Part shown: piece by piece, positions 1,864-44,300 of the stretch
Numbering within the stretch: position 1 is the first letter of the stretch
How the letters are laid out: every line of letters starts with the position of its first letter
DNA from: Cloeon dipterum
Taxonomy: Eukaryota; Arthropoda; Insecta; Ephemeroptera; Baetidae
Assembly (NCBI RefSeq): GCF_949628265.1
Contig: NC_088786.1
Location: 11,718,001-11,782,000, forward strand
Direction: 5' to 3'
Length of the DNA stretch: 64,000 nucleotides
Notes under the pieces: model-generated
Database searches by the model: none
What the model saw: only the letters and a program-made list of their open reading frames with translations
What the model was told of the DNA's origin: nothing
Position numbers and translations under genes: made by a program

Positions 1864-2189
1864 ATGGCGACCGTGGCGGCCAGGGCGGCGGCCAACCTGA
1901 ACACGACGGCCACGGCGGCCAACAACAACAACGTCGACCCGCAGGCTGTGCTTGCGGCCAAAGAGGAGCGCATCAAGGAGCTGGAGCAGCAGCTGCGTCT
2001 CCGGGACGAGGAGATCGTCGAGCTTCGCTCGCACCTCGACAAATTCCAGAGTGTATTCCCGTTCCACGCGGCGGCCGGCTCGCCTAGCGTGGCCGCCCGG
2101 CCGCGTAAGCAGAGGGCTCAGGGCATTTCGGCTGAACCCGTGCAGGAACTCGGCCAGCACAAGCTCCCCGTCTTCCCCAAGAATGACAG
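1864..2189 (+). CDS. for: foraging first exon A: PKG I-alpha-like zipper and autoinhibitory motif
   Basis: The exon begins at an ATG with a good context and encodes 108 residues plus two bases. It ends at a GTGCGT donor in phase 2, which fits the shared exon at 14712. Residues about 33-60 form a leucine/isoleucine heptad ([12 protein letters not shown] and [15 protein letters not shown]). They closely resemble the I-alpha zipper that mediates homodimerisation. RAQGISAEP at about 84-92 is the autoinhibitory segment that occupies the catalytic cleft in the absence of cGMP. The first 30 residues are Ala/Asn-rich and poorly constrained. A longer product starting at ATG 1696 is possible. Confidence 0.9.
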
Positions 2190-5100: not shown

Positions 5101-5832
5101 GTGTTACTGCCCCCGCACCGGGGTCTTTTATTGAAACGCAAGACATTCTCCCCGTGAAATTCATTCATGCATGCTGGAAAGGTGCAAAGCAGTGGGTCGG
5201 AAAGTTTTCGCAATCCTACAAAATCCAAATGGACTCGTCATTGCAATGCAAGAGAATCAAATGTAGGCGCAGAGCATCCCGCACTATATAGACACCCAAA
5301 CATCACTCAGATTCTCAACAAGGCGAGCCAATGGCTTGTTGGTGGAACGAGATTTTCTTTTGGTGTTTTAGAAACCTATCCCTCCATGCATGATTCATTG
5401 AGAGGATTGTCATTCTGTGTTAAAAATACATTTACTGGACCGTGTTTAACGTCAGGGTTATACGACTCAATTTCGTCGGAAACTACAACGCTATCGTATG
5501 ACTTGCATGTTTTCATTGTGTTTTTATTGGTAAATTTTGCACAGACATTAATAAGAATTCCTTTGAACTAAATAATGGATTTCAATTTTATCGTGAAGTA
5601 CTTACGTTTCAATTATATGGAAAATAAATGTGGCATCGTGACCGTTTTTAAAGTTATATTTAATTAATTTAAAATAGGAGCCTATTATGGTTTTCGTGGG
5701 CTGCAAAGAACTGATCATAATCTGCACCATAAAAACGTGTGAAATGAGAGCAGGGTGGTAAAAATTGTGATCTCCGCTGAATTTACTGTTTATTGCACGC
5801 AGACCATTAACAACTGCAGACACACAAAGTCG

Positions 5833-5893
<61 letters not shown>

Positions 5894-8800
5894 GAGTGTC
5901 TTTTTTATTTAACGTTTTTATTGCATGCAAGATACATTGGTAAATTAGCGGAAAGGCGTAGTCGACTGGAGCTCGCGTGCAATGACTGCGTTTAGCACCT
6001 CGATCGACTCACTGATTAATTGGCGTCGATAAATATAGCACTCAATATGGGACACTGGCGTCGACGATAAGGGGAAAATCGGATCGGACGCTTTCAGCAA
6101 AGGGCGCAGGCCGATAAGACAAAACTTGCGCCTGTTGCCTTCCAGGCTGACCCTAATTCGAGCCGCACCGCCGACTTGGATTTATTGGTGCTTCCTTTTC
6201 AGGTTTCGACACCGCCGCTTTTCGCGTTTCAATTAAAAAGCCTTATTATTTCTACCTCAGTCACCGTTATCTGCCTTCTAAATGATGCTTGCGTCTTCAT
6301 GTCACACGTTCTCTGCTATGATTAATTAAATGTTAATTTTTGCACAGGATGCGGCTGTTTGGGAAAAGCAAGGAGAAATTTACACTTTCGAAATTTCACT
6401 AGTTAGTAGGAAACGCAAAATATCCAGATATTTTATGATTGTTGCTAAAACATCATTTTTTATGAATTGTGTCACCACGCAGAAGCTCCTTTGAGACGGA
6501 GGCTAAAAATGTGCGGACATATCGCTAAGTTTAAAAATAGTAGCGTTGAGGTAGTCGTGTCTGTTCCTCTTGCTTGCCACATAGTCTATTATTAGTGAAA
6601 CTTATCGCAAATTAAGTCAATGATAGAGCACCTTTGAAATTATGCCAATATTTAGTTAACCAGGCATGCAGTCATTCGCTTGAAGCGTGTTTCTGATTGG
6701 CTCTCTAAGCGTTCACTCGCAAACACCGGTTTGTTGTTCACTTACGATTTCATAATTCCCACTTTTCCGTGGTCAAAAGAAATCTCTTATGTCAACATGC
6801 CCGACATAAATTACATCTTGTAATACCGCGAGCGAGCCGAGTGCGCGGCAGACAAAGCGAATTCGCTTAATTAAACTTTAATCTGTGACATATCACACGT
6901 ATCGAGATATTATGTGGCATCTCGCAGATGTCATATCTTTTGAGGCGAGACGTGTGGAAAGTGGAAAATAAAAGCGAGTGGAGCAGTTTGTGTGTCTGCT
7001 GGCAGGTCGGGTCTTGCGACGTGTGCAGACTGCATAATTATGAAACGGCGCTTTCGGGAAGAAAGCAAACGACGAGCGCGCGCGCTCACACACATACACA
7101 GTTTTCCTCGGCCAGCCAGGTGTTCGTTCGTTTTCTCCTGCACTAAATAAAAAACAGGCAAGCGAGAGTCTGAGAATTAGAAATAAACACATGAGCCGAT
7201 GCGGCGTTGTTTGAAAGCCAGGTAATATATGGTTGCGCTCATGTTAAGCACGGGTCCATTTTATCGGGCGGCATTATCTTTATTGTGCACCAAACAGGCC
7301 AAGAGCGAGCGTAAACCATTTTTTATCACCCGCTTGCCAGATCGTGAGCACTTTTTTGAGACATTTTCATTTCACCACTAAATCTGCGATTATCATTTTT
7401 TTAGAGGTACCAAACATCCCCATTGATGGGAGAGAATTAATTTTTTTCGTGTCATACGGCTAGTAAGACAGCTTTGGCGGTATTGCAAAATGAGGCAAAG
7501 AGAATGCAATAAAAATGAATTAAAAACCAAGCCAATATTACTAGGTTTTGTAATGTTTCCGGAAGCTCAGGAAAACCCAAATTAGTTTTACATAATAGCA
7601 TACATAGTATCCTATAAACAAAAAAGCATTTTTCAGGGAAATCCTGTGCATTAAGCAAAGTAAATATTTAGAGCAACTGTCAAAGCTTTATTTACACAGG
7701 TAAATTCTGTAAAAAATGCTACCATAATTAACTGATCTTAAACGGTTTCAACAGTTCTTGATTGCTTGAGGAGTAATTGATTTTAGCACTGGAACAGTGC
7801 AGCGGTTGGTTCGCGTGGTCAGCAAGATTTCCTTAATTACAAACCTTTGACGTAGAACACGCTGTTCATGAATAATAATAAGCATGTCGGTCAAGGGGCG
7901 AACGTGTTTTCACCAAACTGCGCTCGGGCGCCGAGGAGAAAATTTTTAAATTTTAAATCACTGCTGCTCGCCCGCCCGACATGCACACACCGCTTTAAAC
8001 GAAAGACGTATATCGTATATTTCGTTGTATTGCTGGCGGCAGCAAAAACTGAGTCGGCCCTTGCTTCCACCACTTATCAAGCTAACCTACAGCGTGCGTG
8101 CGGCTCCTGCGTCGGCCCGCCGACAGCTAGCTCTCTGATTACCTGTGCGTGCGATAACCTCGATTCGAATTTTCCGAAAAATAACAAGAAAAATGTACTA
8201 GACATTCACAGAAGAAACTTATTTTTAGACTCATCTTTTGCTAAGTGCGGTCAGCCAAATTACTTAATTATTAGTTTGGTATTTCCCATGTAAATTGCCA
8301 ACAGTAAAACAATTTTCCAACTTAATGCTCAAATCGTTTATTGGCCCACTTCGAAAGTAATATAGGTTTAGAATTACTCTTTTAAGTTAAAAAAACTGAT
8401 TGCATGAAATATCTTATTAAATACTTCGCCTGCAATACTTTTCATTTTCGCTATATAGTGGGACTCAATCTTGCTCTGCGCTATTTGCAATACATACTTA
8501 TGTATTTTCTCTGATGCAATGGTTCAATCCAGTTGGAAACGCGATACCTGACTGAAGACTCGAGTTTAGCAACATTGAATGGATGGGTGACCGTCGGCTT
8601 TGGTGTCACCCATAAATCAATTAATCCGATAATCCACAATTAAAAATAACGTGCGTTGTGAAACTCAGCCGAGAGACCATGGGCGTTTTCGCTCGCTAGC
8701 TCACGCGCCATTTAGCTCGATAGCCTTTGGTAATTATCCATTAAATGGCGCTGTTTTTGACACGACACTCACATTACCATTAATTTTACTCTCGATATCG

Positions 8801-11800: not shown

Positions 11801-14800
11801 AAATATGGAGTCACCGGCGAGTTTTGTGTAGAAAAGAATGCTAATGAGCAGACTTCTACGTTATTAAAACTATTGATTCGATTGTACCTTTCATTGCACA
11901 CGTATGAATTCAAATATAATAAAATGGGTTGGCCTATATTTGCTCGTATTTTATAATTTACCTGTCAAAATTCCAACGCCTTTGGTAATGCCGCCAATAC
12001 CTAAATCACACAGCCTCCTACTTGAAATAACTCGACAATACCCTCGGGATAAATTCACCTGACTGTATAATTTTCATATTTTCTCTTCATAAAGTCAACG
12101 GTTCCAAGAGAAGCTCCTGGCTTAACGCTAAAAACTATATTCAAATCGCGGTATTAAACCATAAATATGGACAAACGCGCGTAGGCCAATTTGCCTATCG
12201 CCCTCTGGAGATTAATTAGACCAATTATTCCGGAAGCTTTTTTTAGTTGCAGCGTGTTTATTTTGGCCGCGATTAGCTCGGATTTCTGCGCGCGTGTGTC
12301 CACATGCTGGAGCCGTGTTTTACGGTTTGCGACGCGAGATAGCACCTGGCACCGTGGATCAGCGCCGCTCGCATTCAAAGAAAATGGGATGGCGCGCGCG
12401 ACTGTGTGTGTCAGCGGCATCAGCAGATGCACGGACGGTCGGATGGACGGGTGGGTGGGTAGGCGGGTGGTTGCGGCTTGTCGCGACCGAGTGTGCAGTT
12501 GCGGTCGCGTTGCGGTCGCGGCGCCATGGCCACCCTGCGCGAGCTGCAGCGACTGCTGGCCGAGCAATTAGACGAAGTGCGGCGCCGCGACGCCGTCGTC
12601 GACTACCTGCAGCGCGAGCTTAGGGAACGCGACCGGCTGGTCGACGAGCTGCGCAACCAAATCGACAAGTTCCAGCAGGTGGTGCGTCCGTTGACGCGCG
12701 ACGTCGTCCACCTCCAGCAGCAGCACGCCGATCCCCGCCAGATTCGGCACGCTCGCTCCAAGCGGCAGGCCATCTCGGCCGAACCGCTCGCCGAACAGGG
12801 CTGCCAGCTGCCTGTCGACCCCGTCCACAAGACGGAACCGTGAGTCGGCAACCGCTTTTTGTATTTTTGAAAATCGAACGATTCCGAATTCCCCGAGATG
12901 ATTATAACGCTGTCAAATGCGTTCAGGGACTTCAGGGGCACGCTGATGTAGGGTTGTAATTTATTTTCATCCAATTAGATTTTCATCGACTTTTGTTCAT
13001 TTTGCAAGTTCAAAAATATTTATAGTCTTGAATCTTGCCAAAATTTTATATTCTGATATCTACATCCCTCCAGCTAACGCCAAGGCTGAAGTTTAATTAC
13101 TGTCTATATATCATTTAAAAAATAGTTCGCAAGAAACAAATTTGCGTTGAAAAATACAGTGCATTTTCCAAACGGATCATTGCAACTGAAAAATGTTTAT
13201 TTTAACCGCCATTGGGTTTTGACTACCTCTCCTCTATTAATAGAGATGGTTGCTCTTTTGCTCCAAAACCATCGAGTTTTAATAATTTCAATATGTGTGC
13301 GGTTGGCACTAACTCAAAGTCTTGTGTCGTGGAGGAGTTAAATAGTTCCGCAGCGAAATAAAAATTTTGCTTTGATGGAATAAAAAAATGGCCAAAGAAA
13401 CTTAAAACGGGCATTCGGCCATTCGCGTTTTAAATTTTCGTTAGCTTAAAAATAACCATATTAGAAATTAGGGTAAGAATAGATTTTATCAAAATACAAC
13501 TATTTAAAATTACAAAAAGATGCACGCAGCTAAATTTGTTTCAATGCAAACTTTGCCTAGCTTGCCGGAGAAACCACTTTCTCCAAATAATTTCTTCACG
13601 AAGCTATGCAACTTCTTGACAGTCGTGTCAATACGGTTGCCTACCTTCGCATGCTCTCCTTATAGAACTAACTTTAGTTTAAAGCTGACTCAAATAGTGT
13701 GCATTCTTTGCTATTTCCTTAAATATTTTATTTGGCTCAACATTTTAATTCTGAATTATGCTGTGCTGATGCGTGCTAACTTTTAGTCATCTCGGTAATC
13801 TCTATTTATGACGAGAAATAGAAGATGCGGCTCTATTCAAAATACAATTCTAAATTTAACTAATGGAAATCACAACTACCAACGAGATCAAAGCAAGTCT
13901 CTTCACCCGACGATGCGTGTCACAAACAATTGTGATCGGCTTGCAAATTTTCAGCCCAGTTTTTTTCTAATTTTTTCTGAAAAACGAAAATGGTTTATGT
14001 AAAGTGATGCAAGCCGAATGAGAGTTGCAGGCGCCCGACCCGACGCCCTCAATCGCAAGAGAGGGAATACACATGTGTTTGCTTTTTGGTTTGGCAGGTA
14101 CCATGCGCCCAGGCCTATGGTTTTGACAGCTCCTCCTTGCGCCACTACTGCTCATCTGTGTACATATTTCGCGACTTTGCACATTACGCACTTGTCAACT
14201 TCCTTTTGCGCTATCAATTTGGTATGAAACATGCACGTGCGGGTGACGGATCAAATTTAAACATGCCGTACAAAAGCAGAACGCTGAGTAATTGAAAGGT
14301 TTACTTGGGCGTTGGCCCATCTTTTCAAGCCGGATATTTCAATTTACTCTGTCCTTACAGCGAGAAACGCTCCATTATTCAGTATTCCATACATAAAACA
14401 TATTCATCGTTAATTCGCGTTACGAACGACTGAGTCTTTCATTTTTTATTCCATTATAATTGGCAAATATGAGAAAAAGATGTTTGCGCAAGCAATCAAG
14501 TCACAAAAGCGTCAACTTTATAGGCAGAGAAAGCTTGTTTGATTGATGACAGGAAGATTAATATCATACAAATCCATCGGAGCAATTATTGCAGTCCAAT
14601 TACTTATATCTTGTGACCATCCCTGACTATAAAAGTCACGTTCTGTTTCAATTGAATATTCTATATAATATGCGTCTTAAATGAGTAACTTATGTTTTGT
14701 TTTTGTTTCAGGTCGCGCGATCTGATCAAGGCGGCCATCCTGGACAATGACTTCATGAAAAATCTGGAAATGACGCACATTTCGGAAATCGTGGACTGCA

Positions 14801-17800
14801 TGTACCCAGTCGAGTACAAGGCGGGTAGTCTAATCATCAAAGAAGGCGACGTCGGCAGCATCGTCTACGTCATGGAGGGTACGCTCTCATATTTTTTTGA
14901 TCACCACATGCACACACGAGGCTAGCTATTTTTGAATCGCGTCAGTCGGAGCTTGGAAAAATCCATCGCTGGGGGTAAAAGCCGAAGTCTTATGCAAAGA
15001 TCGTTGAGACGTGACTGACTGGAGGAGAACTACGCATGAAGGTCGGAGAGGCTCCGTTTGAGCAAATTTGGAGAGATAATGATTTGTTGTCCTTCTGAGC
15101 AAATTGCGTCCATCAAACTAACTATTCTACAAAAAATTTCATATGTCAGTCGCTTGTCATTTAGGTTTGAGTCACCCTTTGCATACTCTCGCAAAGCTTC
15201 TTGTAATGTACCGCAGGAACGCCACAGCGATGTGCTGCACAATGAAGTAAAAGCGTATTAAATCGGTATCAAGTACAGTACTGCATATCGGCTGAAACCC
15301 GACTCCAAATATGGTGGTACATGCACTCTTCTTGGATGTAAACGCATATTGTCAGCAGCTCTGCCGCGCAATCACGATGAGCAAACAAATGAAAGTGATA
15401 CGAAGCACACGCGGAGAAAATGAAAACGCAAGTTTACGGTTGTTTGAGCCGCTGTTTCCTTGTATCACTGACACCGATTTCAGCCAGGGCAGTAATGAGC
15501 TTTACACCCAAAGTGATGCGCGAGACTCGATCGCCATCATCTCTGCCCCAGAAAGCGATCCGTGGCGTGCGCGTTCATTGTGCGGGCGAATCGCATAAAT
15601 TATATCAATAAAACCGGCGAATGCTCTGCTTATAGCTGGCGTAACCAGACCTCTTTATATGTCTACGTTATGATTTCGATTATTTGTAAATCGAGTTACG
15701 TCACCCGCTCTCGCGTCACCATCTGCATAAATATAAAGCTTTTGGTGAACTGAGATTTTCCTCGATTATCGTTGCATTTTGTCCTCTTTTGGCAGTGAAA
15801 CCTGTTCATTCGCCTTCAGGTCTTTCCGAAACAACTTTTATATATTTAAAACTCCTTGTTATGAATCATCCGGACCGAGTGCAGGTTGTGAATCCGAGCG
15901 TCGATGAAAAGCAACAAGTGCCCTTTACGTGAACGCGCGCGCACTTGGTAATAGCAACAAGTTAGTATGTATTGTAATGCGTTTGATATAAAAACCGGGC
16001 GAGTGTAACATCGAGGTCGGCGCCCCCACCTGCGGACTGGTTGGCGGCGGCAGGAGCAGGATCCTGACGGTGCTTCCCCTCTTTCGAGAGCGGCCGTGAG
16101 ACGAGCGAGCAGCTCGGTGCCTCGATCGCCGAGAGTCCGGAGGAGAGTCGAGTTGCTCGGTGCCGAGTGTGTGAGCCAGTCAGCAGTTCTCCAGCCGGAC
16201 GACGATGCGGTGACCTCGGGCCATGCTCGACTGCACGAGCGTTTTGCGACACCATCCGGGCCGCGCCGTGGAGCTGGACGAGGCGGCCGTGGCCGCCTCC
16301 GCTGGCCGCCTGCAGTCCCAGGCCGACCGGCTGGACGCGTACGAGTCGCGGTGGCGCGACTGCGCCTCGGACGGCGGCTCGAGCGGCGGCGGCGGCCAGA
16401 CCGAGGCCGACGCCGTCCAGCAGCTCGACTCGCTCGTCTACCAGCGCCGGCCGTCGCCGATTTCGACCGCCGAGCCAGGGTCAGTATGTGCTCGCACTTT
16501 CACTGTGCGAGTAAACCAACTTTTCCGCCAGACGGCTTTCCGCACTCCGCACCCACAGGTTGGAAACACGCTCGTCTCGCCGCTGCTAAGCCTCATTGTG
16601 CATTCACCGCTTCTCGGATTTCATTGTTGGAATTTCGACTGGGTGGGTGGAGCTGGGAAGTCAGAACGGGTTAGCTGTAAACTATGAGAGTGCCAAGACT
16701 GTGCTATGCATTCAATTTGTTCTGCTTGACCGATTCAATACCTATGTTTTACTTTTGATATTAGGCTCTTAATCATGCAAATATTCTTTAAATGGTGTCA
16801 ACGTTGGCATTGGTCAGGAAAACGCTGCTACAGCAGCTGACAGTCAGCGCAATGTGAAAGTTTTTAAACAAATAGTGGAAGGAACTCGATTGGCTTTGTT
16901 TATATGGAATGGATTTAAAATTCTTGTTAAATCCGAGGTGCAGCAAAAACGAGTTTGTTTCCGACCCTGTCGGCGCAGCTGTTTGAAAGTGTGTTACCGC
17001 GTTCTGCAGGACTGAGAATAATTATATCAACGGTGTCGACCCTTCCTGCAAGTACGAAAGCACTCTGAAACGTCTGAGCGACCTCTGCAGCCTCACGCCA
17101 GATCATCTAGTCACAGGATCTCACTCCGACTTTGAGCCGCAAGAAGAAGTTGGCGATGACTCGCAGCGCCACTTCGCGCCCAATGAATTCCTGATCAGCA
17201 CCGCCGACAACCGGCGACACCGACCGCTTCCGCGGCTTCCGTCCACGCGGCCCCCGCCCGAGGACAACAATTCGTCATTCTGCATTCCGCGGCCCAAACT
17301 CATCGTGCCGGTGCACGCCAATCCGCGGAAGCGGCGCACCGGCAACTACCTGCTCACCAGCCTCGACTCGCCGCCACCCGCCACCGAACATCCCTCCAGG
17401 AGCTCCGGTAATGCCTGGACACGATGCTTTATTTGTTGATGTCTCGACTATCGGGATTAAACTAGGTCGCATGTGACACGAAATTCGATAAGGCTTGCAC
17501 CAATGTAAAGGCCAAAAATATATAGCATACAGTTAGCAAGTCGTGGTTCAAGACACATTGACTCTGTGTGACGCAATGTTATATACGGCCACTTATTTAG
17601 AACTTAAATTAAATATCCCCATGTTGGAATTTTTAAAATTTGTACTCGGCATCACGGTCGCAAAGCTGCCAATTTAAGCTAAACGAGCCAAATCTCCTTC
17701 ATATAAGTTATAAATAAACCAATTGCTATGCAACCATGTCCCATACAAAATTAGCGATTCAATTCCACAGAAAAATTAAGCTGGCGAAACGTGATTCAAA

Positions 17801-20800
17801 AAAGTTGTTCTTTAAACTTCTCTTGAAAGACGCTTAAGTCATACTCATTTAAGGAACCGAGTTAGAAAATGAAAGGTTTTATTAATGTCACTTAAATTTC
17901 ACCACACACCTGTTCTCACTTTGAATATAATTCCCCAAGTGACTCGCAATCGGGTCATTTTGCGTATTTTTAACCTGCCAGGTTCTGAATTTTGCGGTTT
18001 GCCGCTCAAGCAAGCAATTTATTCGTTGCATAACTTGGTTATGATGGTTCAGGGATCGAGTGCGAATACTCCAAATATATATTTGAGTGCCAAGTGCTTT
18101 TAAGCAGCCTCTTAATCAGATCTCAAGTGCCACCGTTCTTGGCGAAGAAGAATGAGTCCAGAGCGGTGAAAATCTAATTTCCTCCGCTTAACCTCGTTGA
18201 AACGGAGAAGGCTCAGGGGCAGAGCGATCTTTTTACTGATCGGCGAGCTCAGCGAAATGGGAATTTTGCTGTACGCGATTACCCAACAATGGTCTGAGTC
18301 ACGCTTGAAAGTGCAGAGGAGCTTTCATACAGCAACTTCGAAATACGAGAGAGCAGTAAATAATGCCTTCAGTATCCACTCATTCGTTTTACTTAGCACG
18401 TCCATCGCCAGCCGGCCGGGCTAATGGCACACTAAACCATTAAATCCGTCGCTTTTTATTTTTAACACACTCTTTCGGTAGCGGTTCTTTGTTGTTGTTT
18501 CCATTTGTTTCGCGTGCTCCCGATTTTTTAGCGAACGGGTTAAACGTTAGATTCGTGGCGTTTTCTACTGAACGTGTTTCGGCTTGCAGCACGCCAGGGA
18601 TATAAATAGAGTTGTGGCTCTTGCGGCAAGTTTTCGCACACCGTTTTGTTTGCTCTTTTTGATGGCTTTCACATTCCTTCGCTCTTTATTGGCAAACACT
18701 TCATCAATAAAAGTGATGCTTTGAAAGCAAACAGGTCGAAAGGAAACTTTTAAATTTCCTGACAATGAGCTGGGAAAATCCAGTGTTTTCTGCGTGCTGA
18801 TGTAGAGCTTTCATGAAATCTGAGGAGTTGGAAGTAACGAAGTCGATTTCGTGCAGGAAATGCTGACGGCGCGAGTTGGAAACGAAAAAAATGCGTCTGA
18901 CCAGCAATACGGAAGTGCCAGCCGTTCTATGATAATCTGTTTCTGCGCTCGCGCCGTTCACTCGATCTGATGGCGCGCGAAGTGTGTTGTTTCAGCGATT
19001 CGATTAGAAACCTGCGATTTGCTCTGCGTTGCCCCTTTTCGCGCGTTGCTTTTAATAAAAAAGGAACGGATCGCTGGAAGAAGCGACTAGCCGACTTTCT
19101 CTTGGCGCACGTTCTTACCAAATAATTGCACTGAGTGTGAGACGCAAAAGGCCGTGAGTCAACAGGCGTCCCTTGCACCTCAAGGTTGCTTTTTGCCGCC
19201 GCACCGCAATCAGCAGGTGCTTTTTATGTTATTTCAGCCTCCTTCCTCATTTTGCTCCATTTTCCTGCTACACTCTGGATTGCCACGTTTTTTATGATTC
19301 GGACGTCACAATTTTTCTCTTTCATGTTTAAGGGCGATAAGAAGCTTAAAAATTTGCTCTTTACTTACAACGGCAAGCTGCATTATTTTTTTAATTATGC
19401 TATTAAGAGCAGTTGTTACCAAATTTTCATCCAATTTGTCGTGTTTATAACTACAGCGACTCGAGACCAATCGTTGCATGAGAAAGTGCTCCACGCGAGT
19501 TACGGCTCCCAGTTCCCATTGCATTGTTTGCGTCAGTTCTTTCCAGATGACATAACGTGCTCACCGAAAACGAGTCAGCTTGCGTCAAACGCAGCGAGCA
19601 GTTAAATTCAACCAGGCCCATCACTTAATTTCGCCTATTAGTGCTCCTTAAGCAAATGCGCACGCAAAGGCGGAAACAGTCAAGAGTGTATTTGACATGA
19701 TCCATAATTATAACTGCTCAAGCCAAACGGATCGTGAGAATACGCCCTTGGTTGTCTTTGCCGCAGTCCGTATGGCGACTAGAAGTGAATGTTTTTTACT
19801 GTAAAAACTCGTGCCCTTTACAAGATCTCGTGCTATTGAACTGTAATTTTTATCTTTCTCCGTGTACTAATATTAAAATGACGGAGTATGCTCTCGTTTT
19901 TAATTTAGTTTTGATTAGGGGTTGCCAGAGAAAAGAAAAATGATAAATAGTTTCCTCCAGAGTTTAGTCAACGAAATATGCGTACTCTAAAAACCTGTAG
20001 ACACTCAGTCAATGTTTGGTTTGGTGCCTTTAAATATCACCTTTTTCTTAGAATCAATTTGCTAATCTCGACGCGTTCCGTTTTCCAGAGGGTCGCGTAG
20101 AAGTGTCTCGCGATGAAAAGTACCTCAGCACCCTGGCGCCAGGCAAGGTGTTTGGCGAGTTGGCCATCCTGTACAACTGCAAGAGAACGGCCACCATAAA
20201 AGGTATAGAAACTATAGAAGTGTCTTCTGTTAAATTAACACAAATTTTCGTTTTTTTCTCGTTATTTTGCTGTTTTATCGTCATTTCACATTTTTTTCTT
20301 CGCTGTTTCAACATGCCTTTTAAAAATAATCGAAGATTGTTATTTTAAAAACCGCGATGCTTAAAAAATATTTGATACCAAGTTGGAACTCTAATTCCAT
20401 TTATTTAAATTTTCTCGTGCGGTAACTTTTTTTGAAATTAGTCAATTAACTGTGGTCCACATAGAAAGTAACGAAAAATTTTGAAAAATAAATTGAAACA
20501 ATATTATCATAAATGTCATCTTTATTATTTATAACTTGTTTACAACTTTTATAACAGCCGCTACCGACTGCAAGCTGTGGGCGATTGACCGACAGTGCTT
20601 CCAGACCATTATGATGAGAACTGGCCTCATTCGCCAAGCTGAGTATACCGACTTCCTGAAAAGGTGACAATTAGCATGCAGTAATTGCAAGCCAGTTTCG
20701 ATAACTCGTTACATCATTTTGCAGTGTTCCTATTTTCAAAAACTTGCCAGAAGAAACGTTGATCAAAATATCAGATGTTCTCGAAGAGGTATACAAAATG

Positions 20801-23061
20801 AATTTAAATTTATATTACCAGCACACTAATTTTATCAATTGATCCATTTAGACTTTCTACAATGAAGGCGATTACATTATCAGACAAGGCGCTCGAGGGG
20901 ACACGTTTTTCATTATAAACAAAGGAAAGGTAAAGGTTTAGAAATTTTGTTCGCTCTTTCACACTAACTCTATTCCATTTTTCAAGGTCAAAGTCACCAT
21001 CAAGCAACCAGACACAACCCAAGAGAAGTACATCCGCACCCTACACAAAGGAGACTTCTTTGGAGAGAAAGCTCTTCAAGGGTAAGTTTATTTCTTAAAT
21101 CTAGCTGATTTTTTTCTGCTTATTCTGTTAGAGCAATTAATTTTTCAACTAATCGAATTTTCAGGGATGACCTGCGCACGGCCAACATTATCGCTGATGA
21201 TGCCGAGGGAGTCTCGTGTCTGGTCATTGACAGAGAAACTTTCAACCAGCTGATTTCTGGCCTGGACGAAATCAGAACTCGCTACAAGGACGAAGTGGTG
21301 GAAAGGAGGAGGTATGCAATTCTTGATTGAAGACACATTATTATCCAAAACACGCACGTCCTTCTTGTTCTCTCTGTTTTTTATGCTCACAATTACTAAG
21401 GAGAAAGCGAGGTGAGAGCATTGCAATCACGCCAACTTGTGCCTTTTCCAATATCAAACACCCATTTGAATCTGATTGCGTTTTTCAGGATTAATGAGGA
21501 GTTCAAAGACATCCGGTTGCAGGACTTGCGCATTATTTCCACCCTTGGCGTCGGAGGATTTGGTCGCGTCGAGTTGGTGCAAATTAATGGTGACAACCAT
21601 CGCTCTTTCGCCTTGAAGCAGATGAAGAAGGCGCAGGTATGTGCCGTAAGATTCTCGTTTGTTCTATTATTAAATTTGTGCTCTTCAGATCGTGGAGACT
21701 CGGCAGCAGCAGCACATCATGTCCGAGAAGGAAATTATGGGCGAAGCAAACTGCGATTTTATTGTCAAGCTGTTCAAGACTTTCAAGGACCAAAAGTACT
21801 TGTACATGCTGATGGAGTCCTGCCTTGGCGGGGAGCTGTGGACCATTCTGCGCGATCGTGGTCACTTTGATGACTCAACCACGAGGTTCTACACAGCCTG
21901 CGTTGTGGAATCGTTCGACTATTTACACAGCCGCAACATCATTTACCGCGACCTCAAGCCAGAAAACTTGCTGCTTGATAACAACGGCTATGTCAAGCTT
22001 GTTGACTTTGGATTTGCCAAGAAACTTTTGGTAAGTGCTGATAAAATAATAACACGATTTTATTATTTTATTTTTGTATGACTGAAATCTGATCGGTCTA
22101 AACTTGAAATTTCAGCATGGACGCAAAACATGGACCTTCTGCGGCACTCCAGAGTACGTAGCGCCTGAGGTTATTCTAAACCGTGGTCACGACATCAGCG
22201 CTGACTACTGGTCGTTGGGAGTGCTCATGTTTGAGCTCTTGACTGGCACTCCACCTTTCACTGGCGCTGACCCCATGAAGACATACAACATCATCTTGAA
22301 GGGAATCGACGCCATCGAGTTCCCGCGCAACATTACCAGACATGCTATTGCACTCATCAAGAAACTCTGCAGGTGAGATAGAGGAAAGCTTTGAAGTTTT
22401 TTGAAGGAAAAATCTTTGTTGTTTTGTCATTGCTCATTTGATTAACAATTTTTTATTTTATTTTAGGGACAATCCAGCTGAAAGACTTGGATACCAGAAA
22501 GGTGGAATAAGCGAAATCCAAAAGCACAAGTAAGTAAAATTGTTTAAAATAGTTGTATTATATAATTTGTTGTTCCTACCTATTTTTCAATAAATTGCCA
22601 AATTATTCCCTGTCACAATTGGCTTACGTGGCAGTTATCCATATAATTAAAGTGCTAAAAATAATAACAAAAAATACACATTGAATTAGTGAAGAGTAAT
22701 TTGCTCTTCCCCATCTGCATGACTTGCAAAAATGAATAAATTTAAGAGAAACACAATCTCGCTTCGATCAGCTCGGGTCTTTTTGCTCCCATAAAATTAT
22801 TTTTCAACGATTGAAATAGAGTATTGAAGTAGAATTCGTCAATTCAACTTTTGCTTAATCCTTTGATACTAATTCTGAGGAACCTTTTTACTTAGATGGT
22901 TTGACGGCTTCAACTGGGAAGGGCTAAGGAGCCACACTCTGATTCCACCAATTCTCCCGCAAGTCAAGAGTGAGATTGACGTATCCAACTTTGATGAGTA
23001 TCCTCCTGACGCCGAGGGAATTCCTCCAGACGACGTCTCAGGCTGGGATATCGACTTCTGA
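1864..23061 (+). CDS. for: cGMP-dependent protein kinase (foraging), whole locus
   Basis: This gene encodes a cytosolic serine/threonine kinase activated by cGMP. Isoform A joins 1864-2189, 14712-14878, 20089-20202, 20558-20663, 20725-20788, 20852-20929, 20987-21081, 21165-21311, 21489-21636, 21689-22030, 22116-22372, 22467-22529 and 22896-23061. It gives 690 residues with every junction in phase, and isoform B from the exon at 12526 gives 686. The order is leucine zipper, autoinhibitory segment, two cyclic-nucleotide-binding domains, kinase domain and the C-terminal tail ending GWDIDF. This is the standard PKG I architecture and about the usual length (mammalian forms are 671-686). In insects the gene controls feeding and foraging behaviour. 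Alternative promoters choose the N-terminus, which in PKG I sets dimerisation and anchoring. Transcripts probably end near AATAAA at 23755-23760. Confidence 0.95.
4885..4920 (+). repeat. Partial extra unit of the dispersed repeat
   Basis: This stretch begins CCCAATAACA and runs through ATAACATGGGTGCGCC. It repeats the part of copy A at about 5023-5058 and resembles the equivalent part of the 60.9-61.2 kb copy even more closely. It suggests a tandem or nested insertion of a second fragment directly upstream of copy A. Confidence 0.5.
4964..5317 (+). repeat. Dispersed repeat, copy A
   Basis: This segment matches the segment at 60895-61230 (reverse strand) along its length and the segment at 48279-48470 over its second half. 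Shared blocks include GATGGG(T/C)GACC, GGACCAGCT, GTCTTTTATTGAAACGC, ATGGACTCGTCATTG and CAGATTCTCA. No terminal inverted repeat, poly-A tail or target-site duplication is evident, so the class is open (degenerate non-autonomous transposon or SINE-like). A 103-codon frame starting [13 protein letters not shown] spans most of it, and the opposite strand is also partly open. Confidence 0.7.
5837..5890. repeat. (TA)27 dinucleotide microsatellite
   Basis: An uninterrupted AT/TA run of 54 bases sits in the long foraging intron. It is a simple repeat, likely length-polymorphic, with no sign of function. Confidence 0.98.
9968..9994. repeat. (GACT)n followed by (AC)n microsatellite
   Basis: About four GACT units run directly into an AC dinucleotide tract within the foraging intron. 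It is a compound simple repeat. Confidence 0.85.
12290..12525 (+). promoter_or_regulatory. GC-rich promoter and leader of foraging exon B
   Basis: A local GC/CpG-rich block in otherwise AT-rich intron DNA lies immediately 5' of the ATG at 12526. That exon has no splice acceptor for its own frame and opens with its own initiator, so transcription probably starts in this block. No TATA box is obvious. Confidence 0.45.
12526..12839 (+). CDS. for: foraging first exon B: PKG I-beta-like zipper and autoinhibitory motif
   Basis: This alternative first coding exon starts at ATG in the context GCGCCATGG. It encodes 104 residues plus two bases and ends at a GTGAGT donor in phase 2, joining exon 14712 in frame. 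Residues 1-60 ([20 protein letters not shown], then [20 protein letters not shown]) form a heptad coiled coil. They resemble the mammalian PKG I-beta N-terminus closely in sequence and spacing. KRQAISAEP at about 79-87 is the I-beta autoinhibitory motif. The full B isoform is 686 residues. In mammals the I-beta zipper selects different anchoring partners from I-alpha; the same division of labour here is inference. Confidence 0.9.
14712..14878 (+). CDS. for: foraging shared exon: first half of cGMP site A
   Basis: The acceptor TTTCAG and a donor at 14879 bracket a conserved exon reading [20 protein letters not shown] then [10 protein letters not shown] and [12 protein letters not shown]. It is the start of CNB-A: the N-terminal helices and the first beta strands. 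It accepts phase 2, so exons A and B both fit. It ends in phase 1 and joins 20089. The third N-terminal unit lies downstream of this exon and therefore cannot include it. Confidence 0.93.
15987..15994 (+). promoter_or_regulatory. TATA box upstream of foraging exon C
   Basis: TATAAAAA is followed within about 20-30 bases by the start of a GC-rich block leading to the ATG at 16223. The position fits a focused promoter for the third isoform, with a start site near 16015-16025. Confidence 0.5.
16223..17407 (+). CDS. for: foraging alternative N-terminus C (exons 16223-16479 and 17010-17407)
   Basis: The first exon starts at ATG and encodes 85 residues. They include a glycine/serine-rich stretch and [11 protein letters not shown] (about 75-85), reminiscent of the PKG autoinhibitory motif. 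It ends at GTCAGT in phase 2. The second exon has no internal ATG start in frame but is fully open. It is proline/arginine-rich ([19 protein letters not shown]) and ends in phase 1 at 17407. That phase joins 20089 (reading [12 protein letters not shown]) but not 14712, which is upstream. The predicted isoform is 744 residues, with a new 218-residue N-terminus and only the second half of CNB-A. The unit cannot be inserted into A or B transcripts without a frameshift. Confidence 0.75.
17408..20088 (+). other. foraging intron; possible further promoter, otherwise no gene seen
   Basis: AT-rich intron before the CNB block. Apart from a TATAAATA box at 18601 I find no exon with matching splice phases and no coding-like frame. 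Confidence 0.55.
18601..18608 (+). promoter_or_regulatory. TATA-like box inside a foraging intron
   Basis: TATAAATA in a locally GC-richer context, about 1.5 kb upstream of exon 20089, could mark a fourth start site. No coding first exon follows, so it is weak. Confidence 0.25.
20089..21311 (+). CDS. for: foraging shared exons: cGMP sites A (second half) and B
   Basis: Seven short exons (20089-20202, 20558-20663, 20725-20788, 20852-20929, 20987-21081, 21165-21311, with introns down to about 57 bases) are all in phase once the listed boundaries are used. The phosphate-binding cassette of site A reads [17 protein letters not shown] and that of site B reads [17 protein letters not shown]. Each has the Arg-Thr pair that favours cGMP over cAMP. 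The switch region between them reads [19 protein letters not shown]. Binding of cGMP to both sites releases the autoinhibitory segment from the kinase. Confidence 0.95.
21489..23061 (+). CDS. for: foraging shared exons: AGC-type kinase domain and tail
   Basis: Exons 21489-21636, 21689-22030, 22116-22372, 22467-22529 and 22896-23061 encode the catalytic half. Visible motifs are the glycine loop GVGGFGRV, the ATP-binding lysine in FALKQMKK, the catalytic loop YRDLKPEN, the metal-binding DFG in LVDFGFAKK, and the activation loop [15 protein letters not shown], whose threonine is the usual phosphorylation site. The AGC C-terminal tail ends [12 protein letters not shown] followed by TGA at 23059-23061. 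All key catalytic residues are present, so the enzyme should be active. Confidence 0.97.
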
Positions 23062-36600: not shown

Positions 36601-38399
36601 TTATAATAGGCGCCGTTTTTAAGCGACGCCTTCGCCATCGGGAAACAACAGTCTCGTTTAAAAAAACTCAGTATGTTAGTTTGTTACTCTCTAGACTTTC
36701 GTGCGTCATTGAACAGTGGGAAAGTAAATCAATTTAAATTTCTATTTTAAAATCGAGTCGTTTAATTAGCTATTGGAAATTCGACTTGAGTTAGTCTAAC
36801 TTTTTCAAATGTTTTAAAAAATCCTAGGGCTTTCACTCCCAAATCTCGTTGAGTTTGAAATCGGTTTTAAATCTTAGTTGCGTTTTTCAAAAATATTCTT
36901 CGGCAATGGAAACCAACTTTTGAATATCATCTTGAAATTGCGGAGAGATGATCTCCTCCCGCGCCCGAAAATGACATCCATTGGCACAAAAAGCAGTAGG
37001 GAGTCTATTCTTTGTGTTTGTCACTGGTCACGTGACGTTCTGGTTTCCAGCGGCCGAAGCCATGCACACCTGTCGTCGCCGCTAACTCTCGAGCCACAAA
37101 TACTCATCTGCGGGCACGCAAGATGCTCGCTCTCCCTCGCATTACACATTATAAACCCTCTCGCTTGGGCGCTATCCACTAGTGATTTTTGACGCGGATT
37201 TGTCCGGAAGCAGCAGCACCCAACAACGCCGCTTGATCAAATAATGTTGAAATTCGGTGTAGAATACCGAAAAACGGTCAAAAATGAAATTCGTGCGTTT
37301 TACAACGTGGTCAATTGAAGTTATAAGGAAATACGCTCGACAAAAACAATGCCTCTTGTGAGAATCGAACTCACGACCCCTGGTTTACGAGACCAGTGCT
37401 CTAACCTCTGAGCTAAAGAGGCTTGGCGTCGGAGGCGGGTGTCCGTGTTGTACATAACGAGAGAATCGCGGCGCTTGTAGCGACTTCCACTCGCGGTGCT
37501 AGCGTCGCCACCATGCGTCGAACGGCAGAACACGAACCACGAATACACAGCAGAGCTCTCGAAGGGGAGGTGAAGCAGCAGTGACTCACTCGGCGCACGG
37601 TGCGCGCTGTCCGCCCACGAGTCTGATTCCCTCTCGAGCCCTATTTTTGATAGAAACGTCTGGTCAGACAAACTAATTAACCGTCCTCACCCTCAATTCT
37701 CCGCTTGAATAAAATAAAAGTGCGTTAAAAGGAGATAACTTACAGTTCTGATAATTTACTTGAGATGTATACAACGACACCCTAATTAAAACTTCAAAAT
37801 GCAAATGAATATTATCCAACCTGAGCTAATTCAGTTTGTGGTCATCTTTTTATGTTCCTTCATGGTAATGGAAATAATCACACGGATGTTTTACCATCTA
37901 GATACTGCGTGTTCAGCAGTGTAGTGTGACAGTTATCTGTTCATTCGGTTAAATACAAATATTTACTTTTAATTTGCACTGTGATGCCACAATCAAAACA
38001 GAAAAAGTAATCTAATCAGCAACTTGGTTTGTTGCAGCAGAATACGGAGGTGCCGGGCCTGTGTATTGGCGTATCCAGCTGGACAAAGATCTCCTAGAGA
38101 CCATACTCTCGATCTACCCTGAGTGGTTCAAGGTTGCACTGCTATTTCTATTGTTTGTGTTTACACATCCCAAATTAGTCTGAGCGAGGCCGCCTCAGAG
38201 CGGCGCACCTTCGCCTCTTGCAAGCACTTTTTTTTAATTTTAACTTTGTCTCTTTCACAGGAGTGCAATTTGGACTTGTTGAAGATGGCTGAGAGCGGCC
38301 AGGCTAGCGAAGCGGATTCGGAAGGGACACCAAAGTCACCTCCGAAAGCCGAAGTCGACGAGTCGCCGCTGCAGAAGTGCATGGATAAAAATAAAGAAT
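33616..38399 (+). CDS. Mrtf: Mrtf N-terminal exons
   Basis: Exon 33616-33790 (MPVSTAAAASDAAVLRPIIH onward, Ser/Pro/Ala-rich) ends in phase 1. It fits an acceptor before 38041, giving EYGGAGPVYWRIQLDKDLLE and IYPEWFK. A third exon (38261-38399) adds an acidic Ser/Glu-rich linker leading to RPEL1. The middle exon is enriched in hydrophobic and aromatic residues and is not part of the known MRTF core. A transcript starting elsewhere could begin at the methionine in KMAESGQ (exon 38261). Linkage of the first exon rests on phase and position only. Confidence 0.55.
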
Positions 38400-41300
38400 G
38401 TAAGTGGCTAATCTGATAATGATAATCATAAATCGTCGTTCAATTATATTCAAATCAGAGGAAAAGCGGTAGTCTAGTAAAGGACTAATTTTTTTTATTG
38501 TGGGCGCTTCTCGCGATCCCACACATTAATAAGATTAAAAGAGGAAAATCAGAGCTTGTTTCTTAACGACAACAGAGTGTTTTGAGTTATAAAAAGTAAG
38601 AAAAAAAGAATTTGCTACTTTTCAGGTAAAAACGTCGAGCAAGCTCATTAAATATAAAAATATTTGTCAAAAATAAGGTTTCTCACTTAAAACGGAACAA
38701 TTAATATATTTATCAATCCAAACAAGTTTTCCTGTGTTCGCAATAGCCGCCTAAAATTCTATTCGTGAACCATGTATTACAGTTTTGTAATAATCGGAGA
38801 AACAGGAGATTTAGACAAGGACGCACGCGATGAAAAGATAAAGGGTTTAAAGCCCGCTGCATTGAGCGTTGCTCGCGGTCAGTTCGTTCAGCCAGCCAGC
38901 CGCGATTAACCTTTGCGTCGGGGCTTACGTTCGCTCGCGTCTGATATCTAGAGGAAAGAAAGGAAGAAGAAAACGGCAGCGCCGGGCGGAACAACAAACG
39001 TGAATTCGAGTTCTCGCGACACCTTGCGCGCACTCATTAGTATGTGGCTGGGACACTACTTGTCGGTGCAGCGCGCAGTTTGTGTATTTATTAGCGTGAT
39101 CAATGACCCTGTAGTGGCAATGCTCAGGCTAAACTTCCTCTCGGTAATTTCCTCGCGGATCCCAAGACGTGCGACTGCACCCACCCACTGGCGATCGTCG
39201 CCCCAGGTGCCGAGTGCCATCCGTATTTTGTTTTTTTCTTCCACTCACTTGTCCGCCAGCGGTGGCCAGCGATGGTCAAATTCACAAATTACTTTTACGA
39301 TCCAATAAGTCAATGTTGCCGAAACGATGTTTCAGCTCTCAAAGTGAAGCTGATGCTTCGCAGACCAATCAACCAACTTGTGGCCCAAGGAATAATGCCG
39401 CGTGAGTACACTTTTTGTTTTTGACAGCCATCCGGATTACTCGCAACCAGAGGTTCACATTTCTTTGAAAAAAAAAAAATACTTATTGCAATTTTCTTTC
39501 AAAAAACCTTCATTTCTTTTTCTATTCTAAACTAACCCAGTTAAATTTTGAAAAAAAATAACCATTTTCAAATAGAAAATATATTTCTAGTCTTTTCCTT
39601 TATGGCAGATGGGCATCAGACCTCAAAAAAATTTTAAACTCTATTTTATTAATGAAAAAATCTACTTCATTTGGATGCGCAGCGTTGAAGACTCCTCCAG
39701 CATTCCACGAGGTACGCCAAAAATTGGAGCGCGCCAAGACTGGCGATATGCTAAAAGCAAAAATCCAACAAAGGCCAGATCGGCAAGAACTAGTCCGGCA
39801 GCACATCCTCGAAGGTAAGCAAAGTTCTTTCAGCACTCGTCTTTTGCGACAGGAATGGCATTCATATCGTTCTCTCTGTGCAGATGTAGGGCATGTGGAC
39901 CCATCGCTGGCTGAGAGGCAGCGCATGCTGAAGAAGGCGCGTCTGCAAGACTCGTTGAATGACCAGCTGTCGCACCGACCTGGCCCGCTTGAGCTCATCC
40001 AGAAGAATATCCTGCACACGGATGAAACCATTGAGAGGGCCGTCAAAGGTAGGCATTTTTCTTTTTTTTGCGGATTTCAACAGAACAAAAAATTTTGCAC
40101 ATGTTTCGTTGATCAACTTTATTTAAATTTTTTATTTTGTTTAATACTGATTTATTTAGGATTTTCAGTTTCTCGAATTGATCTATAAGTATATACAAAT
40201 CATGGAAATTCATCCATTTTACAGAGGGCCAGATTGCATTCCGCGCGACGTGCGAGGGCCAGCTGACGAAGCCGCAGCACCCGAATCGCTACATCACCCT
40301 TGAGGAAGACTCAAGCTCAGAGGGTGGACAGTCTCCTCCGCAGTCGGCACCGCCATCAGTACCGCCAGCAGCCCTACCTTCAGCGCCGCCACCGCTGAAG
40401 CCCGCGGCACCGACACTGCTATTGTCAGCGGGAATGTGCTTTGAGCCGGCAGGATGCAAGTCTGTTGTGATGCCCGTGTCGGTGGTGCAGTGTCCGGAGG
40501 CGGCGGCCAGCCCCAGTCTGACCACCTCACTGTCCTCGCTCAGTCCCATCAGCTCTGTGGCGTCGCCCAAAAGCGCGTCACCGTCGCCGGCGCTGGTCGC
40601 GACGCCTGCCGTAATCACAGTGGCGCCGCTCTCGGTGGCCTCGATCTCAGCGCCGCCGTCGCTCACGGCGCCTACCACGGCCGCGCTTATGGCGGCACAG
40701 CGACCCTCCTCCAAGGCTGAAAAGGAGCTTCAGAAAAATCGCAAGAAGTCCAAGACCAAGACGCAGCCCAAAGCGCGGACCATCAAGTTTCATGAATACA
40801 AAGTAAGTTTGGGATGAATTTCAACCAGCAGAAAGTAATGTTTGGTTTCCTTGATTATTAGTTGGAAAAATTGGAAGATGTCACGTTTAATTGCTAATGC
40901 TCGAAGTACTGTTAATACTGTTCAAAAAGCACTAATAAAAATAATTTTTTAGCTTTGTTTTTAAATATTTTGCTGAAGTCAAAACCATAGACACTAAAAA
41001 GAGCACTGTGATGTGATTTTACTAAATGCCTTTATACGCTGCATTCCAGGGTCCACCAAACGCTCAAAAATCGCTCAACAGTCCAACTCCGGTTGAGACG
41101 TCGTACGAGCTCCTCTTGCAGCAGCAGCAATTGTTCCTCCAATGGCAGTTGGAGTGGCAACACAAGGTGAATTTCTAACCAGAGTTTCAAATCCTGTCAA
41201 TGTTTAATTCTGTTGTACAGTTTCCGCAATTAATCCTGCCCGCGTCCAAGAAAAAGCCCAGCTTAAGTGGGGCTGAGACCAAGTTCTCCAACCTGATCGC

Positions 41301-44300
41301 CGTATCGACGTCTGCGTTGCCGCAAATCCAGCCGGCGACGCATAGCCCAATCGCCTCGCCGTCGCAGCAGCAATCGTCCTCCAACAGCATGAGCAACATC
41401 CTTCCCTCGCCCGCACCGCCCACCACGCCCACCTTGCCCCCGGCCACCCCTGAAAGCATCAGAGCCGTTTCGAAACTAGAAGATATGAAAGGTACTCATT
41501 TAGAATGGATATTATTACTTAAAATTGGCCTGAAAAATTGATATCTATATTTATATCGTTTTTAAAAAGTAAACGTTTGCTTTGATTTGTAATTTTATGT
41601 TATTTTCAACAGTAAATGACCTCAAGGCTGAACTCAAGAGGAGGAATTTGCCTGTGTCAGGCTCGAAACCACAACTGATCGACCGGCTGAGGCCATACAG
41701 TGACCAAATTATGTTCCAATCAGACAAGCAACCAGCCACCCCAGGTTCTGTGTCTTCCACTTGCGGCATTTCCAACCCCAAGTCGTGCGGAACCCTTGCT
41801 CTTGGAGATGAGTCCTTGTCGGATCTTTCCTCGATGGACACCCCTTGCTCACCGGCCACCGAGACGCCCTTGTTGGGTCTTGAGGCAAGCAGCCCTGACA
41901 ACGCGAGTAGAAGCCCCACTTCGCCACACCCTTCGTCGCCACTGTCCTTGATCGGCGGACCTGTGTCCAACGCGCCCTCCACCCTGCTTTCACCGGCCAC
42001 CAACATGGATGTGGACAACGACCTTGAGATGGCCTCAATGGACACTACCGACGCTCCATCCTCGCCACTGTCCAACCCTGTTTCACCCGCGTCTCCTTTT
42101 GCAGCGGTGCTGTCAAAGACGGTCAGTGAGGAGATCATTAACCAGCAGCAACGCAAGATAGAGCAGCTCCAACGCGAGCTGCAAAAGTCTCAGCAGCATA
42201 ACCAGCAACACAAGGTGAGGGTGAGACCACTCTGCAGAATACCTTTTGTTAAAAACAGTTATGTGATGTGGGAAAACGCACTAGTTATTTTTCCAGCTCA
42301 ATAATGCGAGTTTTTATTATTTTGCTTATTCTATAAAAATGCATTATTCTAAATAACAGAACAAAAAATAAAATTTTCAACCAAATTCAATGACACCATA
42401 ACAACTCTTCATTTGAGCAGCAAAATTTGTGCAGAAAATTCATTTTCTTGGTCATCTAACCAATATTATATCATTAACTCAGCTATTTCATGTAAATTTG
42501 CAAAGTTGACACAACCTCACTGAAAAATACTTTTTTGCAATTCAGTGGGAGTTAAAAGAAAAATAGGGGATCTTATCGCTGATCCCAGTTTTACAAGCTC
42601 CTAAGTTATTTCTCTGTTTGCAGTCCAAGGAGCAGGACAACTCATCGACCAAAAACCAACTTCAGCAGCACCTGCAGCAGAAGCAGCAACAAAAGCAGCT
42701 GCAGCAGCAGATGCACAAGTTGCAGCAATTGCAGACGCTGCGGCAGCAGCAGCTGCAGCAGCTGCAGCAGGACAACGTTGCCGCCACAACCACGGTCCAT
42801 CAGCAGCAACAGCCGATCCTGCCGCAGGCCCTGGCCTCCAGCGGTCACCTGCAGCAGCAACAGCAGCAGCAGCTCAACGTCAAGGCCAGTCTGGCCGCTT
42901 TTCTTCTGCAGCAGGCGCAGCAGATCTCGGTTGGGCAGCCGCAGCACCCCTTCGTGCTCAGTATCACCACCACAGCCCCCACCGCCACCCCCGCGTCCAC
43001 CCCTGTTGTCAACAATAATAACGTTGTCATCAACAACAATAACAACAACCTGGTGAACAACCGCGAACAGAGCGAGCAAGAGCAGAAGCAGCACAAGATC
43101 AATCAAATCAACTTGCTGCAGAAACAACGCTCCAATTCTGTTGCTGCTCAGCCCCAATCTCCGCAACAACAACAGAGGTTGGTTTTCCCTTTTTAGTCCA
43201 TAAAAATTATACTTCAATCCTTCCAATAATTTAAATAGGAGATCAATTTTTCTATTCATGAAGATCCTTCACAAATTGTTTACGCACCTCAAAAAATTTG
43301 CTTATTTAAAGTTGTAACTTCTTAAAACGATAGCCAAGAATCTTTTATTTATTATAATTGTAATTAATTTTAGATCAGCTTCAATATCCAGTTTCCGGGG
43401 CTCATTTGACCTGCAGCAGTCGCCTGCACCTTTGATAGAAGTGGCTCCTCCTAAGGTAGACAGCAAGTCGCCACCTCCACCAATTTACGAAGAGGCGGCA
43501 AAGCTACTTAAAGTGCACATCAAACAGGTACTTCTGCTTTGCACTTTACTTGGACCAAGAAATGACAACGAATTTTAATTTCAGGAGGCGAACGCATCAA
43601 AACAGAAACATATAAAGAGTCAAATCGTAGATGACGTGCTAGAAATACTTATTAAAAATGGAGGCAAGTGCATCTTCTGCAAATAGATAGAGATCTTTTT
43701 TCTGACGGAAGTTTATTCTCATATCCATAGAATTGCCTCCAAGTGCTGCTCAAGTGCCTGTGACACCGACCACGCCGGGCAACTTTGCGAACCATGAGCT
43801 GGCTTTCAAAGCTGGTGGTGTGCAAGAGACCAAGCCGCCCCCGACGCCGCCCCCGCTGCCGGCAGCCTCACTCCAAGACTCTTTCACCCTCAATCTGCAG
43901 TCCATGATCAGTGATTTAAATGTTCCGGACGCAAAGGTCAGTTTCCCGTCACAAAGTTGAAAGGAATGAGGTTGATTTACTTACATTTTTATATTCTAGA
44001 CGTTGGAGAAAAGTGATAACACATTTGTGATGAGCCACCTCGACTTAATTTTGGGCCAAACTGGGAACAACCCCCAGCCTATGAGTTTACCCTGCAACAA
44101 CTTTAATCAAAATCAGGTATGATTTTAGTAAAACTTTTTTGTTCCTTATATTTTAACTTCTTTGATGGTAAATTTGTCCAAAATTAGAGAGTTAAAAAAT
44201 TCAATTGTAAATTTTGTCACCAAGTACATGAAAAAAAAATGAAAAATAATTTCAAGTCTAAATAATATTAAATGTAATTTAACCCTTACAAGAACGTAAA

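Follow-up and report, generated by a model that had tools for sequence, protein, structure and literature searches.

The foraging/PKG I gene on the plus strand of a 64,000-nucleotide stretch of the mayfly Cloeon dipterum (contig NC_088786.1, positions 11,718,001 to 11,782,000; the whole stretch is called the window below) raises the question of what kind of kinase would be made from a third N-terminal unit, located downstream of the exon that codes for the N-terminal part of the first cGMP site, CNB-A. An initial annotation had proposed that a product of this unit, here termed C and composed of exons C1 and C2, lacks that part of CNB-A. The comparison with published sequences suggests that unit C, a third alternative first-exon unit of the gene, corresponds to the FOR P2/P4 class (FOR-T2) of Drosophila, and the probability of this reading is put at about 0.88.

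The queries were antigen sequences from Table 1 of PMC10299703, belonging to antibodies raised against Drosophila FOR isoforms, and not the whole P2 sequence; this paper, PMC3524188 and PMC3667181 are cited here from excerpts. The P2/P4-specific antigen (P2 residues 286-362) matched 17230-17346, within exon C2, at a tblastn E value of 2.5e-10. Aligned with the N-terminus of isoform C it scored 109, the best of 2000 shuffles reaching 52, and C2 ranked first among the 379 open reading frames of the window (stop-to-stop, at least 60 aa), the runner-up scoring 44. The assignment to the P2/P4 class follows from this match to a P2/P4-specific N-terminal sequence. The identity was centred on a block of 23 residues ending in RKRRTGN, 18 of which are the same in Drosophila P2/P4, and the common sequence can be written FCIPRPxLIVPVHxxxRxRRTGN. 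The P1/P3 antigen matched exon A at E 2.9e-13.

The proposal of a third N-terminus without the N-terminal part of CNB-A is thus borne out by its homologues in Drosophila, which share this property, and since these have already been described with the same incomplete CNB-A, isoform C belongs to a known isoform class and not to a new kind. What is new, as judged from the sequence, is the conservation of the class and of its short block beyond Drosophila melanogaster. The form with an incomplete first cGMP site would then not be confined to that species, which argues for a function, and the one short N-terminal block that was kept gives a defined point of attack for studies on the regulation of a PKG in which a single cGMP site works. 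In the literature searched, which missed most subscription papers, no truncated CNB-A form was found outside Drosophila; a search for the block sequence itself returned only PMC10299703, and one for DG2P1/DG2P2 gave nothing on those isoforms among the matches listed. No second copy of C2 was found in the 190 Mb of the genome (10 contigs), the DNA search giving one match and the protein search, at E up to 10, returning C2 itself and one match at E 8.2 that is regarded as noise. The telomere repeats TTAGG and TCAGG were looked for as well, and neither was found. Pfam gave two matches for C1, both below the cut-offs, and none for C2, and a PDB search with the 218-aa N-terminus of isoform C yielded nothing better than E 0.35, so that this long N-terminus appears to contain no recognised domain.

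Exons, splicing and putative promoter of unit C

The gene was reconstructed as 11 common exons, preceded by a single upstream CNB-A exon and three N-terminal units, A, B and C. The features of the locus, all on the plus strand, are as follows.

1864..2189, plus strand: alternative N-terminal exon A, with zipper and autoinhibitory (Ai) motif RAQGISAEP; 690-aa isoform, or 746 aa from the ATG at 1696
12526..12839, plus strand: alternative N-terminal exon B, with zipper and Ai motif KRQAISAEP; 686-aa isoform
14712..14878, plus strand: exon that gives isoforms A and B the N-terminal part of their CNB-A, predicted to be skipped by C
15987..15994, plus strand: TATAAAAA, weak candidate TATA box of a third promoter
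16205..16213, plus strand: minimal in-frame upstream open reading frame, ATG CGG TGA, just before the main start; its ATG is the only one in 16010-16222
16223..16479, plus strand: exon C1, with start codon, heptad-patterned stretch (V16/V23/L30/L37/W44) and a terminal Ai-like motif of 11 residues
17010..17407, plus strand: exon C2, a linker with the conserved 23-residue block; probably corresponds to the region specific to FOR P2/P4 in Drosophila
20089..20202, plus strand: first common exon, coding for the C-terminal part of CNB-A, including its phosphate-binding cassette
20558..23061, plus strand: the other 10 common exons, coding for the end of CNB-A, CNB-B, the kinase domain and the stop codon

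The identity of the gene is indicated by a tandem CNB pair followed by a kinase domain and nearest to PKG I (in the PDB, the first 362 residues of isoform B were matched best by PKG I structures, with 7lv3 at E 1.1e-113), by the presence of Pfam cNMP_binding and Pkinase in both isoforms B and C, and by the alternative N-termini with zipper and Ai motif in isoforms A and B. The coiled-coil profile PKcGMP_CC matched exon A at 2.7e-14 and exon B with 25.2 bits, under its cut-off of 35 bits. The long intron after exon A contains (IY)n open frames on both strands at 5602-6008, which represent an AT-rich simple repeat.

The last codon of units A and B is interrupted after its second base, and both join the exon at 14712; in unit C it is interrupted after the first base, and the unit joins 20089. 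All three products are read without internal stops, isoform C as an open frame of 744 aa spanning 13 exons; its coordinates, phase and length had been given correctly in the initial annotation. The ATG at 16223 opens a frame to 16479, with the donor AGG/GTCAGT, and exon C2 is bounded by the acceptor TTCTGCAG/G and the donor CCG/GTAATG. With matrices trained on the splice sites of this same gene, the acceptor at 17010 was good (top 0.8% of AGs) and the donor at 16479 fair (top 2.8% of GTs). The translation of C2 has no in-frame Met and an upstream start is therefore required; among the 42 in-phase ATG-to-GT pairs of 14879-17000 able to feed 17010, the pair 16223-16479 had the highest donor score. 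An alternative donor of C1 after 16483 was rejected, being of lower score and giving GAC TGA, an immediate stop, when joined to 17010.

The initial annotation had held that the phase of unit C fits only 20089. This exon fits and is preferred, but two of the 11 common exons accept the phase, the other being 20558, because the exon 20089-20202 has a length of 114 nt. A splice from 17407 to 20558, by which the phosphate-binding cassette would be lost as well, is compatible in phase; it would leave a common part of 488 aa instead of the 526 aa obtained via 20089. The Drosophila lengths reported for P1 (1088 residues, with an N-terminal domain of 560) and P3 (742, with 215; PMC10299703, PMC3524188) give by subtraction common parts of 528 and 527 residues, which favours 20089 and makes the junction with 20558 very unlikely. 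More improbable still is the explanation that exon C2 derives from a different gene lying inside the intron, or that unit C is an open frame arisen by chance, to which the weak donor at 17407 could lend some colour: in Drosophila the same gene contains a P2-specific sequence homologous to C2, the exons of the unit join in phase and the length of the common part agrees.

Several observations weigh against the assignment of unit C to the P2/P4 class or against its use. The donor at 17407 falls only within the top 11.9% of the GTs of the window, compared with the top 0.1-4.2% for the 13 other donors, which however formed part of the matrix training; after the conserved block, the C2 frame has GTs only at 17408 and 17435 before its stop codon, and GCAAG and GCAGG do not occur there. 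No similarity to P2 was detected outside the 23-residue block in the two antigen stretches compared, the second of these (P2 191-227) having no significant match, with a score reached by 135 of 2000 shuffles. Pfam still finds two cNMP_binding stretches in isoform C, part of CNB-A remaining recognisable, and in Drosophila the P2/P4 antibodies did not detect P2/P4 protein in whole-body lysates, according to the excerpts of PMC10299703. The TATA box, which starts 236 nt upstream of the start codon of isoform C and had been taken as support for a separate promoter, is present but weak in this respect, because TATAAAA occurs 10 times on the plus strand of the window, a further TATAAA is found at 15732 and the stretch 16000-16040 is devoid of a TCA[GT]T initiator. 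A separate promoter is suggested mainly by the position of the exons and by the parallel with the Drosophila promoter pr4, more than by the TATA box.

The two-codon upstream open reading frame ends 9 bases before the start codon of isoform C and may serve in translational control.

The truncated first cGMP site and its predicted regulation

The part of CNB-A that is missing was located by alignment with PKG I beta through 7lv3, in a numbering that makes the pseudosubstrate Ala residue 78, an offset of the construct that we take to be correct. The junction residue of isoform C, E219, corresponds to Glu159 of I beta, and the cassette Arg to residue 192. The skipped exon codes for the segment from SRDLIK through VYVME, and the loss extends to I beta position 158, so that the N-terminal part of the barrel is gone and the phosphate-binding cassette retained. 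Accordingly, the statement that isoform C has no N-terminal half of CNB-A but keeps the kinase and site B holds in substance, CNB-B being complete, and is refined as to the limit of the loss. The Pfam cNMP_binding score decreased from 142.4 bits in isoform B to 116.2 in isoform C; the kinase scores were nearly equal (239.1 and 238.6).

Isoform C is predicted to be transcribed in C. dipterum from a start within the intron that follows the first CNB-A exon, so that exon 14712-14878 could not be in the transcript, and its long N-terminus would be joined at the residue equivalent to E159 of PKG I beta. CNB-A would then not be expected to bind cGMP normally, by which the cooperative two-site switch would be lost; cGMP would act through CNB-B alone, the basal activity would be raised, and the separate promoter might restrict the isoform to particular tissues. 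A single-site PKG driven via CNB-B and of higher basal activity is considered the likeliest mechanism but, taken by itself, is given about even odds, the remainder falling to the constitutively active and the autoinhibited kinase discussed below. It agrees with what is reported of Drosophila P2 and P4, which are described as being without conserved ILz, Ai and complete CNB-A and as possibly having a higher basal activity, and which are assigned to promoter pr4, with protein seen in carcass and fat body; their biochemical analyses are described as yet to be performed (PMC10299703, excerpts). The altered cGMP activation that had been anticipated is thus upheld as a suggestion, the activity itself being predicted.

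The N-terminus of isoform C contains two elements that could bear on its regulation. At residues 75-85, at the end of C1, the motif of 11 residues that had been noted initially is indeed present and resembles the Ai motifs of isoforms A and B, but it has one extra residue and a Ser (RRPS) where Ai has Gly or Ala. In 200000 shuffles the pattern IS.?AEP appeared in 126 and together with the basic pair in 3, these patterns having been defined post hoc. The P1/P3 antigen, within which the fly Ai is located, scored 51 against the N-terminus of isoform C, a value reached by 1 of 2000 shuffles, and its tblastn match at 16367-16483 (E 0.36) takes in a Gly-rich stretch together with the Ai-like motif. 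C1 also contains a heptad run of five steps, V16-V23-L30-L37-W44 (shuffle P 0.009, post hoc), reduced to four steps (P 0.028) if only L, I, V and M are admitted; the corresponding values were 0.006 for exon A and 0.0001 for exon B, and the family PKcGMP_CC had no match in C1. The second element is the RRTG (Gly197) of the block shared with Drosophila, which lies 22 residues before the junction and is arranged like a pseudosubstrate, its Gly presumably taking the position of the pseudosubstrate Gly of PKG I alpha. The pattern R[RK]x[GA] appears in 25% of shuffles of the N-terminus and RRTG is therefore of interest only for its conservation. As functional features that go beyond the fly descriptions both elements are hypothetical.

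The same isoform could also be constitutively active and hardly, if at all, controlled by cGMP, as is the proteolytic PKG gamma; this is considered possible but rather unlikely. PKG gamma (I beta without residues 1-167, with an incomplete CNB-A) and PKG I alpha lacking residues 1-77 are reported to be constitutively active, the junction of isoform C at I beta 159 is close to the former, and the Drosophila P2/P4 are said to be without Ai (PMC10299703, excerpts). Against this, CNB-B is intact in isoform C, either the Ai-like motif or the conserved RRTG is potentially inhibitory, and the same paper speculates that P2/P4 retain a selective cGMP-dependent activation. Less probable again is an isoform C autoinhibited by its own N-terminus, through the motif of C1 or the RRTG of the block, and released by cGMP at CNB-B. 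The rarity of the Ai-like motif in shuffles, the score of the P1/P3 antigen, the five-step heptad run and the place of RRTG in the shared block speak for it; the extra residue of the motif, the Ser of RRPS, which resembles that of a substrate site, the frequency of the RRTG pattern in shuffles, the shorter heptad run with L, I, V and M only, the post hoc nature of all the motif tests and the description of P2/P4 without a conserved Ai (PMC10299703, excerpts) speak against it. For the same reasons (its extra residue, its Ser and the description of the fly forms) the motif is to be regarded as a putative Ai. It is tempting to speculate, with greater doubt than for autoinhibition in general, that the 23-residue block could be a substitute autoinhibitor, in which RRTG, with Gly at the acceptor position, would act as a pseudosubstrate just before the truncated CNB-A. 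If the block were a true autoinhibitor, isoform C would act as a cGMP switch with one site and no cooperativity, equipped with an inhibitory arm of its own, and not as a deregulated kinase.

Likeness to known PKG forms

With Drosophila FOR P2/P4 (FOR-T2; exon 7, pr4) isoform C shares an N-terminal sequence of its own, an incomplete CNB-A, the conserved block, intact CNB-B and kinase, and a common part of nearly equal length, as obtained by subtraction. It differs in its size, 744 aa compared with the 894 aa of FOR-T2, whose transcripts give two closely spaced Northern bands, a doublet (PMC3524188); in its two N-terminal exons, in place of exon 7 plus a splice variant (PMC10299703); and in carrying an Ai-like motif, whereas P2/P4 are described in the excerpts of PMC10299703 as being without Ai. 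FOR P3 (FOR-T3, 742 aa), which is nearly equal in length to isoform C, was rejected as its counterpart, since it is a member of the P1 class, which has zipper and Ai, and the likeness in length is a coincidence. PKG gamma is cut about 9 residues after the position of the junction of isoform C but, unlike the latter, it arises by proteolysis and has no new N-terminus. The pea aphid, like C. dipterum, has a single foraging gene with alternative 5' exons, and its products Apfor1 and Apfor2 both contain zipper, autoinhibitory domain and two CNBs, as do isoforms A and B here; in the excerpts of PMC3667181 no form of the C type is reported, although at least two more transcripts, which were not cloned, were seen on Northern blots.

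Other features of the window

In plus-strand frames of the region 39562-42301 Pfam identified RPEL repeats (39562-40185) and, further on, a SAP domain (41573-42301); we take these frames to be probably a gene for a myocardin-related transcription factor. On the minus strand, at 49139-51634, a frame of 422 aa with many EP/K repeats and another of 179 aa had no Pfam match and possibly belong, on our assumption, to an Acinus-like gene. The minus strand also contains a tRNA-Thr (CGT) gene at 37350-37422 and a frame of the Major Facilitator Superfamily at 61671-62105 (Pfam MFS_1, E 2.7e-15).

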